Position numbers and translations under genes: made by a program. Shown here in pieces: positions 16,893-37,900 of a stretch of DNA of 64,000 bases. Positions within the stretch are counted from its first letter, which is position 1. Each line of letters starts with the position of its first letter. Under the pieces are notes generated by a model that did not search any database, had not been told where the DNA came from, and saw nothing but the letters and a program-made list of their open reading frames with translations. This DNA comes from a virus: the IMG/VR virus record IMGVR_UViG_3300043399_000297, positions 1 to 64,000 of that record; one strand, given 5' to 3'.

Positions 16893-17116
16893 GGCTTCTT
16901 AATTCTAGCCCCGAAGATATCCAGAAGCTATTAGAACAATACGAAAAAGAAATTGAGGGGATTAAGAAGGGCGCATTAACCATGGCTTGGTATATGCGCG
17001 GCGGGGCATCATATGAGGATATCCTCAACATGTCCGACAGCGAGAGAAAGACTATTAACCAAATCATAGAAGATAATTTAGAGATAACTAAAAAGTCTCA
17101 AATGCCCTTCTTTTAA
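16886..17116 (+). CDS. gp51-like chaperone extension, probably made by -1 frameshift
   Basis: Seventy-six codons in the -1 frame follow the slippery site (LNSSPEDIQKLLEQYEKEIE..., then MAWYMRGG near the middle and KKSQMPFF at the end). The combined product with gene 26 would have 349 residues. An ATG at 16826 opens the same frame but would translate a basic stretch lying inside gene 26, probably not real. Short proteins with a W-Y-M-R-G-G motif and a terminal PFF occur in baseplate assembly proteins of T4-like phages, from memory and not checked. If the frameshift does not occur, translation could only start at the internal ATG at 16982 or at 16826. Confidence 0.65.
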   Translation, partial: RIRLLNSSPEDIQKLLEQYEKEIEGIKKGALTMAWYMRGGASYEDILNMSDSERKTINQIIEDNLEITKKSQMPFF

Positions 17117-17117
17117 C

Positions 17118-17166
17118 AGTTGATCTTCGATCAACTAGACTCTCACTACGTTCGGTCTACTTTTTT
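17118..17166 (+). terminator. Probable terminator after the gene 26 unit
   Basis: A perfect 8-bp hairpin (17118-17125 with 17129-17136, loop TTC) starts 2 nt after the stop. A weaker AGAC/GTCT pairing (17137-17140 with 17155-17158) follows, then six T residues at 17161-17166. The T-run makes a rightward terminator plausible. Confidence 0.6.
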
Positions 17167-17191
17167 AATTCTGTAAGACAATAACACTGAA

Positions 17192-17511
17192 GGGATATAC
17201 ATTGCCGGTTTAGAAGCCATGGTAGTGCTCCTCAGAGGCACTACCAAAGTTAGGACTTGCCATGGCCCGTCATCCTTTGCCGTCTATCCCCCGTTAAACT
17301 AGCCCTTAATGCTGTTTAACGTCACCGGTTGCCCTGTAAGATTTGATGGGGCTGTAGTGAAGCTATAAAGTGGAACTCACTTTACTCTTCGGCAACGCAT
17401 GTCCTATAGCATCAAGACAGAATAGCTATAGACTCATTCAAGGTTCGCCTACCTAGCGAGAGCCTTGTCGGTGTTCCCTAGGATCACTCCTAGGCATACT
17501 CCAGAATCCGA
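17192..17511. ncRNA. Candidate large structured RNA (novel), strand unresolved
   Basis: No gene fits in 17167-17579, and the stretch looks richer in G and C than its surroundings. Local pairings fill it: GGGATA 17192-17197/TATCCC 17285-17290 enclosing a three-way junction (17216-17220/17262-17266, 17221-17228/17238-17245, 17247-17250/17255-17258); 17292-17299/17314-17321 extended by AGC/GCT; 17328-17333/17391-17396 enclosing 17366-17372/17378-17384; 17404-17410/17425-17431; 17439-17443/17463-17467 with inner 17444-17448/17456-17460; 17468-17471/17508-17511 enclosing the perfect 17477-17483/17488-17494. G-U pairs (17444/17460, 17473/17497) favour the plus strand; a GTGA loop in the last hairpin favours the minus strand. 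No tRNA, tmRNA or RNase P signature was found. The flanks 17167-17191 and 17512-17579 hold nothing recognised. Confidence 0.6.
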
Positions 17512-17579
17512 CCGCATTCATTCGTGGTGCAGTCTCAAGGAGGATCAAAAGATCAATATCGATGTAAAAGGGTTCTGTA

Positions 17580-18128
17580 TTAGGTTTCTAAAGTAATAAT
17601 ATTTGTAGTGATATCTTTAGGTGAGCCTGAGTATGCTTTAAGAAGGTCTTTGTTGAGCCTGAAAAAATGTTCGAATTCCATAATAATCCATTCGCCTGAC
17701 TTCTCAGAACGATAATGAATAAAGTTGTCAGCAACCCAAGTCATCTTGGATTCAACTGCTACAAACTTACCCTTACGATTAAACTTCATAAACAATATGT
17801 TACAATCATTATCTTCTGCAACATCCATTAATTGTTTTAACCAAGTGTCTATGACCTTACATTCACCTGTTGGTAATAGATGAAAGGGGAAATCTGCATA
17901 ACTTTTGCATTCTGCGTTGAACAGTTTAAATGTTTCACCGGGCACTATATCTCCCTTGAAACTTCTTACTTGTCCTTCGTGTAAATACTGTTTTCTTGAT
18001 TGATTCTTGCCACCAACATATGCCCCAGAACCCGGGGCACGAATAAAACTCTCATTATAAGTTTTGGTTAAAAACTGAGCAATCTCACGCTCAAAGCTTG
18101 AACCTTTATTTTTACTCGGTGATGGCAT
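17580..18128 (-). CDS. PD-(D/E)XK family nuclease
   Basis: A 182-residue protein with the layout of small PD-(D/E)XK nucleases such as Holliday-junction resolvases: E13 in GSSFEREIAQFL, the RAPGSGAYVGG glycine-rich turn (30-40), D60 in KGDIV and the E73-x-K75 pair in NAECKSY. These residues would bind Mg2+ and cut DNA. It is the last gene of the 47-46 recombination unit, 38 nt after gene 46, so a role in recombination or branched-DNA processing is likely. The exact substrate cannot be told from sequence. It is not a homologue of T4 endonuclease VII by any motif I can see. Confidence 0.75.
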   Translation of the reverse strand: MPSPSKNKGSSFEREIAQFLTKTYNESFIRAPGSGAYVGGKNQSRKQYLHEGQVRSFKGDIVPGETFKLFNAECKSYADFPFHLLPTGECKVIDTWLKQLMDVAEDNDCNILFMKFNRKGKFVAVESKMTWVADNFIHYRSEKSGEWIIMEFEHFFRLNKDLLKAYSGSPKDITTNIITLET

Positions 18129-34942: not shown

Positions 34943-34948
34943 TGATAT

Positions 34949-37900
34949 ATGGCTAGAATCAGAACACTAAACTTTTTACCTGAAGTTTTTCAAACCCCAA
35001 CCAACAGCCAATTTTTGGCAGCTACACTTGATCAGATAGTAAGTGAGCCTAATACTGTTAAGCAACAAGGCTATATCGGCAGTAAGTTAGGTTATGGAGT
35101 GAATGCTCTCGACTACTATGTTACTGAACCAACTAAAACCCGAGTTGACTATCAGTTAGATCCAAGCGTTGTTTTCACAAAGCCCAATGAAACTATTGCA
35201 CAAGATTTTATCACATATCCCGGTATACTTGACGCATTAAAATTGCAGGGAAGCATCACTGATGATAACAGTGAGCTTTTCCAAAGTCAATTTTATTCTT
35301 GGGACAGCTTTGTTGATCTGGACAAGTTGGTTAACTATCAAGAATATTATTGGTTGCCAGAAGGTCCACCTAGTGTTTCTGTTTCTCCCGGATTAGTATA
35401 TTCAGTTGAAGAATACATCGTAACAGATTATGACAATCAATATGGAATTAACGAGAAGACAGCACAGAATAGTGGTCCGTTAAATCCAACATTAACGTTA
35501 TTGCGCGGCGGATCATATACCTTTTCTGTTAATCAAAACAGTCAGTTCTTTATTCAAACTTTGCCGGGCACTAGCGGATATAGCCCCATTCAGCCTAACA
35601 TCCCTACACGAGAAGTATATGGAGTAGAAAACAATGGCGCGTCAACAGGATTTGTAACATTTGATGTTCCCTTAAAAGATGCACAAGACGAATATGATTT
35701 CCCGGGTAATAATATAGTAGATTTAATTTGCACTACTCCGTTTAGTCAGGTCAATGGTCAAATACTAGGCACGTTTACTGATCCAGCGACCGGTGTAACA
35801 TATAATGGATTGAGCGACATTGACGGCATTACCGGTATCGATGGTTTACGAATTATGTTCTATAACACCGGTATCTCAAATGAAGTAGGATATATCAATT
35901 CATATTACGGTGAGACTTCATATGACGTAAATGATGATTATTTTACTTCTCCATTGACAGTAGAAATAAGTTCTACCACTAATAGTGGTTCATATCTAAC
36001 TCTTGGAACAGGGTATACCACTGATCAGTTAATCGTTAATCAAACTATTACTTTTGATACTCCTACACTCGGCGGGCTATCACAAAATGTAGTTTATTTT
36101 GTAAAAGAAATATTAAATTCCACAGACTTTACAATCAGTGAATATATTGAAGGCCCTGCTCTCAGCGTAAATGATGATGCTGGAACAATGATTGCTAACA
36201 TTAATCAAGGACAATATCAACAGGGATTTTATAGCACAGTAAATGATAACTTCTATCGCGTACAATTAGTAGGAACTGGCCCGAATCCTACAATTCGTTT
36301 ATTACCAGATGGCACTATCCCCACTAATCAAAAGATAACACCACAATTCGGTGTTACTTATATTAATCGTCCTTTCTATCGCAATGTAAACGGTGTAATT
36401 GGGTTAATTCCTATTATTACTGCACCATTAGATGTGTTATACTATCAAGATGGCACTAACCCAAATAAAGTTGGGGAAATTCGTTTAGTTGACACTAACG
36501 CAGACAATTATATTAATGTCGATACTCAGATTATCGGCAAAGTAAATTATACTAGTCCAAACGGTGTTGCATTTACAAACGGATTAAAGATAATATTTCA
36601 AGGTAATATTTTCCCTAGTAGATATTTAAATCAAGAATATTATGTCGAGGGAGTTGGAACTAGTATTGAATTGGTTCCTGTATTAAGTCTAGAGTGCCCT
36701 GAGAAGTTTACAATTGGAGAATATATTCCCTGGGATATGTTTGGATTTGACGCAGGCCCCTGGGACATTAGTTTAAATATTCCTGTTTTACCTGACTATA
36801 TTACTATTGCAAGAAACAGCATTAACAAAAATGCCTGGTCGCGCAGCAATCGTTGGTTCCATACTGATATCATCACTCAGACGGCAAACTACAATAATAA
36901 TCCAGACATTTTAACTAGGTATGCAACACTAGAGAACAAGGCGAAAAGGCCAATCATAGAGTTCTACCCTAACATCAAATTGTTTGATAGCGGATCTGTT
37001 GGTAAAAACGCAGTTGATTTCTTCGACACACGAACAACAGATGCTTTTAGTGAGGTTGCGGGATTATATAATTATTATCCTGACGTAGAAGTTTATACAA
37101 AAAATACAGCAGTAATTGACAGCACAATAACTAGCCCTGTATCATCAAGCAGTTTGATTGTTGGTAAGACATATGTTATTACCAGTAAGGGCACGACAAA
37201 CTGGAATACGGCTGCCGGGACAACAGGCTTTTATTATGTAGAAGGGCAAATATTTGTTTGTGAGTCTACTAGTGTTGGAACAGGAACAGCTACTGAACTA
37301 GCATATGGGACAACTATTACCATACCCACAGCAGATATTAATGGTACATTCCAAGAAGGAATGTATGTTGCAGATTATAATAATGTACTTCCTGTTAACA
37401 CACAACTCGATAACATACAAATTGTAGGGTCAGATACTATATTAACCGTTTCCTGGGATCAACCTCAAAATGTTGATACTACTACTACGGTTATTGTAGG
37501 ATCAGATAGCACAGTAAATGCATACGCAGTATATCCGGGAGCAAGAATTGTTTTTGCTAATGATAGTGATCTACAAGTAAGAAATAAAATCTATGTTGTA
37601 GATTATGCAACAATTGGAACAAGTTCACAGCCTATTATTGTATTAAGTCCTGCTGAAGATAGTATGCCATTACCTGATGAAATGATTGCAGTTAATAGAG
37701 GGTATAATTATCAAGGTAAAAGTTTTTACTATAATGGTATTATGTGGGATGAAGCGCAATTAAAAATTGATGTTAATCAACCTCCCAAGTTTGATGTGTT
37801 TGATAACAATAATATAAGTTTCGGTGACACTGATGTTTATAATAGCAGCACCTTCAAGGGATCAACATTATTTGCCTATCAGATAGGTGATGGTCCTGAT

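Follow-up and report, generated by a model that had tools for sequence, protein, structure and literature searches.

A minus-strand RNA of conserved structure, located between baseplate-hub and recombination genes in jumbo phages

The locus and its neighbours

The stretch of DNA analysed here (the window) covers 64 kb from the start of a virus record of 244,022 bases, and around positions 17117-17579 it displays a T4-like gene order in which a baseplate hub gene and a small overlapping open reading frame (ORF) on the plus strand are followed by a series of minus-strand genes. Beyond the gap, these encode a RusA-like/PDDEXK_15 nuclease, SbcC- and SbcD-like subunits, and a late sigma factor. The flanking genes are convergent, with the bounding ORFs ending at 17116 (+) and 17580 (-), and the 463 nt that separate them constitute the sole internal noncoding gap of more than 200 nt in the 64 kb, counting ORFs of at least 70 aa. 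An earlier note, made from the sequence alone, had described 413 nt of this gap (17167-17579) as gene-free and richer in G+C than its surroundings. Both claims held, the GC content being 0.44-0.50 in the gap vs. 0.33-0.40 around it; the portion that the note omitted (17117-17166) is terminator-like. Hairpins resembling the pair found there are present at the equivalent place in relatives, and in the window the pair and its run of six T residues went unflagged by a consensus terminator scan. No tRNA-like or tmRNA-like domain was called in the interval by ARAGORN. The features of the locus are collected in Table 1.

Table 1. Features of the gap, its RNA and the adjoining nuclease gene (window coordinates)
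Feature	Coordinates	Strand	Evidence
Terminator-like element of the plus-strand hub unit, with tandem hairpins of UUCG type followed by T6; outside the RNA	17117..17166	+	sequence
Structured noncoding RNA, ~350 nt; 5' end near 17556, 3' end near 17200 (approximate)	17200..17556	-	conservation, covariation, G-U/A-C counts
Repeat R2 (plus strand TTGCCGG)	17202..17208	-	homologue comparison
Hairpin I, 9 bp, near-invariant stem UGGUAGUGC x GCACUACCA	17220..17246	-	conservation in nuclease-found set
Repeat R1 (plus strand TTGCCATGGCCC), covaries as identical letters with R2	17256..17267	-	homologue comparison
Pseudoknot 1, 5' strand x 3' strand	17415..17420 x 17280..17285	-	standard pairing throughout (6 pairs, 48/48); double changes in 5 pairs
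Pseudoknot 2, 5' strand x 3' strand	17348..17351 x 17288..17291	-	4 pairs, 100% standard wherever letters exist; double changes in 2
Hairpin C	17293..17320	-	double changes in 9/9 pairs
Core domain; closing helix 17469-17473 x 17323-17327	17323..17473	-	double changes in 3/5 pairs
Core helix D (17392-17396 x 17328-17332), inner hairpin about 17358-17389	17328..17396	-	double changes in 3/5 pairs
Core hairpin B, loop carries pseudoknot 1 strand	17399..17437	-	double changes in 10/11 pairs
Core hairpin A	17439..17467	-	8 pairs, double changes in 6
Hairpin F; site of 300-650 nt insertion in both G006 copies	17477..17494	-	6/6 pairs with double changes
5' domain with inner hairpin; closing pairs CUCC x GGAG (17539-17542 with 17499-17502)	17499..17542	-	inner pairs covary
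5' hairpin, variable sequence	17543..17554	-	sequence; partial covariation in homologues
ACAGAACCC element just 3' of nuclease stop, possible promoter part (inferred)	17570..17578	-	single exact copy in window
PDDEXK_15/RusA-like nuclease gene, neighbour of the RNA	17580..18128	-	complete gene

We conclude, with little doubt, that the greater part of the gap codes for a minus-strand RNA whose structure is conserved. How this RNA is produced is less clear: it may be made as the trailing part of the nuclease transcript, or it may be expressed from a promoter of its own near 17550-17580, and in the absence of transcript data its ends, promoter and terminator remain undetermined. Among 119 unique homologues, the region corresponding to the ACAGAACCC element holds AGAACCC in 22 and an A/T-rich leader (AAAAATT) in 45. 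The longest complete ORF within the RNA varies among homologues from 17 to 89 aa, and there is therefore no sign of a conserved small gene.

Elsewhere in the window, a single plus-strand ORF of ~6,750 codons (34949-55207) showed no Pfam match in either of the parts that were searched. ARAGORN called a tRNA-Phe on the opposite strand (34946-35027), overlapping the start of this giant ORF; the call is probably a false positive, as it is unsupported by the tRNA model of Rfam.

Strand, fold and covariation

The assignment of strand rests on the excess of G-U over A-C pairs. When strand-neutral stems are read from the plus strand, 140 A-C combinations are encountered vs. 36 G-U. In the final structure, read from the minus strand, G-U outnumbers A-C by 119 to 19, and 42 sequences favor the minus strand vs. 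one that does not. By contrast with these counts, folding energy was only moderately informative: it fell below that of shuffled sequences on both the plus strand (z -2.5, 1/100 shuffles as low) and the minus strand (z -2.0, 2/100), and as single-sequence values of this size are modest, the claim of a structured RNA is rested on covariation instead.

The significance of covariation was judged against shuffles and against controls in which the structure was slid along the alignment. Among 68 sequences of less than 90% identity, the strongest covarying column pairs comprise a set of nested stems and two pseudoknots. The resulting structure of 70 pairs, including both long-range pseudoknots, was scored on 48 diverse homologues, in which 97.7% of cells are paired and 46 of the 70 pairs show compensatory (double) changes. 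Cells with double changes number 537, compared with 148 in shuffles, and the covariation score is 0.462 compared with 0.160; on no measure did any of 500 shuffles reach the observed value. Slid versions of the structure remained near background (31-44% paired).

Read 5' to 3' on the minus strand, the RNA begins with a variable hairpin and a 5' domain, the closing pairs of which provide no evidence from covariation because they are invariant in all 48 homologues. Hairpin F follows, then a core domain (hairpins A and B and helix D) and hairpin C. The 3' side consists of the return strands of the two pseudoknots, repeat R1, hairpin I and repeat R2, in that order. A covariance model of the core (itself named R1) scores the window at 185 bits, the window being among the 24 sequences from which the model was built. 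The window thus belongs to a family of RNAs defined by the core helices and two pseudoknots on the minus strand, together with a near-invariant hairpin (GGUAGUGC/GCACUACC).

Several elements of this fold had been proposed in the earlier note. Its 11-bp stem at 17292-17321, which corresponds to hairpin C, and its 7-bp stem at 17477-17494 both held and both covary (nine and six pairs, respectively, all double-changed). Its three-way junction at 17216-17266 failed: the GCCATG x CATGGC closing stem is missing from most homologues, and only the hairpin at 17220-17246 is conserved. The overall inference of an unnamed phage noncoding RNA was upheld with corrections, namely the minus strand, where the note had given none, and a length of about 350 nt. 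With respect to the checks that it had suggested, covariation across homologues proved overwhelming, folding energy was lower than in shuffles but modest alone, and a cmscan against Rfam 15 gave no relevant match.

Distribution, linkage and comparison with known RNAs

Homologues were collected by several routes. A protein search with the nuclease yielded 21 IMG/VR loci; in one (L001) the nuclease and hub are identical to those of the window, and besides it 18 carry the hub (cut in two), the small ORF and the nuclease in identical order, and their gap sequences, of 440-668 nt, can be aligned. A pattern search for hairpin I recovered at least 120 further stretches; both neighbors are present in 94 hairpin-found loci, and another 25 are truncated on one side. 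Removal of duplicates left 119 unique RNAs from IMG/VR, on contigs of up to 525 kb and at a fixed genomic place. An alignment-based search for the nuclease that ignored the RNA returned 80 loci, of which 79 carry the RNA and the 80th lies on a contig that stops before the RNA position. As at least 590 stretches encode relatives of the neighboring nuclease, the RNA family may be larger still.

This linkage invites the reading that the RNA acts in cis, as an element in the 3' UTR of the nuclease mRNA that controls the stability or translation of this message. In favor of this, the RNA is on the same strand as the nuclease and directly downstream of it in 79/79 testable loci, frequently no more than tens of nucleotides from the stop codon. 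However, the core model, which made one strong match in seven of eight whole contigs, made two in the remaining one (G006). Copy A of G006 occupies the usual place beside the hub gene, where only a 25-codon remnant of the nuclease was found; copy B is located far away, without a hub or nuclease neighbor, and the two copies have diverged. A purely cis role on the nuclease gene is unlikely given these placements, and the fold far exceeds the usual stability elements in size. Pseudoknot 1 is maintained in L110 / G006 copy B by different letters, which represents independent confirmation of that pairing. As a separate observation, a SegE-type GIY-YIG homing endonuclease gene (L352, 3688-4764, minus strand) stands at the expected place of the nuclease in G006, adjoining the remnant.

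The RNA is absent from Rfam. At gathering thresholds, the 4227 models of Rfam 15 gave no hits in the window and none in eight homologous loci (L352, L031, L036, L060, L133, L026, L023, and L025), and relaxed E-values gave chance-level matches or none. No DNA similarity to isolated phages was found in INPHARED or PLSDB, where the 290 weak hits (E around 4) are short and attributable to chance, and the hairpin pattern was not found in bacterial genomes. Variants of the hairpin with an altered inner stem were also tried, and their stem-forming matches proved to be unrelated sequences. No published description of the RNA was found in the literature searched, which left out most subscription papers. 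We therefore regard it as a previously uncatalogued family of jumbo phages, with newness meant at the level of the RNA family, for elaborate phage RNAs of unknown function are already known as a broad kind.

Two such RNAs, GOLLD and ROOL, had been cited in the earlier note as known large phage RNAs, and no homology to either was found. GOLLD is an elaborate noncoding RNA of phages and prophages with unknown function (PMC12286853). It is likewise pseudoknotted, but at about 800 nt it is much larger than the RNA described here, has different neighbors, and gave no covariance-model match at gathering or relaxed thresholds. ROOL (about 600 nt) is similarly a large structured phage-associated RNA of unknown function; it gave no covariance-model match in Rfam 15 and is not known to share synteny with hub and recombination genes. 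It could nonetheless be proposed that our RNA forms oligomers in their manner, its copies contacting one another via the repeats or hairpins. The shared setting speaks for this reading, as do the insertions at hairpin F in the two G006 copies, which expand those loci to about 0.8-1.1 kb. Against it, typical members measure only about 350 nt, Rfam similarity is lacking, and no self-complementary partner of the repeats was detected; we consider it unlikely. The stable RNAs of T4, RNAC and RNAD, are also of unknown function and come from a T4-like phage, but they differ in size (about 100-150 nt) and in their setting within a tRNA cluster.

The core model found no homologue in PA5oct, SCTP-2, Phosso, XaC1, Atu_ph07 or L021. 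Some of these do contain gene-free stretches at comparable places. In L021, a folded stretch of ~500 nt (243-740) lies directly after the small ORF of the hub unit (z -3.05, 0/100 shuffles) and is a possible diverged relative. Phosso has a folded stretch between its hub and recombination genes (z -2.17, 0/20 shuffles). In PA5oct (L143, 3479-4991), 1.5 kb hold only four small annotated ORFs and fold in part far below shuffles (z to -9.7), and the equivalent in the near-identical phage 30-2 carries no annotation. XaC1 has a 792-nt gap at the equivalent place, where folding is not unusual. It is possible that the stretches of L021, PA5oct and Phosso hold relatives diverged beyond detection, though this is a lead only.

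Hairpin I, the repeats and possible function

Loci found through the hairpin pattern carry hairpin I by construction, and its conservation is best appreciated in the nuclease-found set, which is free of that bias. There, 52 of 76 RNAs match the strict pattern and the others differ mostly toward the loop; in L309 the stem is preserved via a double change. The repeats that flank the hairpin behave differently, varying in their letters among phages yet agreeing within any one RNA. The R1 and R2 of the same RNA match at 5.63 nt, vs. 5.09 in permutations (sd 0.10), a value reached by 0/2000, although the test ignores phylogeny. Because the repeats change together as identical letters, a shared partner is suggested. 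A search of about 1.2-1.5 kb on the RNA strand revealed no consistent complementary site. A 10-bp complement within the L110 insertion was equalled in 39/2000 shuffles and is again a lead only. Covariation of the repeats without a located partner is the main unexplained feature of the RNA.

A regulatory reading, in which the RNA resembles a small RNA or decoy whose repeats pair with host or phage RNA, would account for repeats that are lineage-variable yet internally consistent, as expected of a changing shared target. Apparent complements of the form CATTGCCGG were considered as partners and rejected: in the window phage, where nine are on the other strand, they fall for the most part within repetitive coding sequence and seem to be coincidences. 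Shared seeds, moreover, measure only about 5-8 nt, and this reading appears improbable. In G000, repetitive coding regions at 143.3-143.5 kb and 169.1-170.3 kb show recurrent minus-strand CATTGCCGG resembling an R2 complement, which probably reflects codon repetition.

It might instead be supposed that the RNA is a ribozyme built on a pseudoknotted catalytic core, whether self-cleaving, self-splicing or trans-acting, and that the repeats are substrate sites for one guide. The compact core, its two pseudoknots and many invariant unpaired bases are in keeping with this, and two sequences with one common partner do resemble substrate sites. We nevertheless doubt it. No ribozyme or intron family was matched, typical members revealed no internal guide for the repeats, and there is no exon to join, the genes on either side of the RNA being intact in the window. 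The group I introns of T4-like phages share a pseudoknotted core, but our RNA sits between two complete convergent genes, and its helix order differs from theirs. With respect to a template role, no reverse transcriptase was found in the phage's own genome.

Structure, strand, linkage and absence from Rfam are shown; function and expression are unproven, without transcript data. Our best guess, held with slightly more doubt than confidence, is that of a trans-acting RNA scaffold. The minus-strand RNA of ~350 nt, the core of which contains two long-range pseudoknots, would act in trans as a stable RNA. Hairpin I would offer a conserved protein a place to dock, an inference drawn from its sequence invariance alone, while R1 and R2 would both contact a single partner, which is most likely a nucleic acid bound through base pairing. 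A bolder reading than this scaffold, toward which we are rather more skeptical, is that of a new family that acts in trans by a mechanism of its own, perhaps as a ribozyme or RNA machine, and is kept by jumbo phages between their baseplate-hub and recombination genes, with the unannotated stretches of L021, PA5oct and Phosso as possible relatives. Large structured RNAs usually do elaborate jobs, and few phage-borne classes are known; since an alignment, a structure and a covariance model now exist, this RNA is directly testable.
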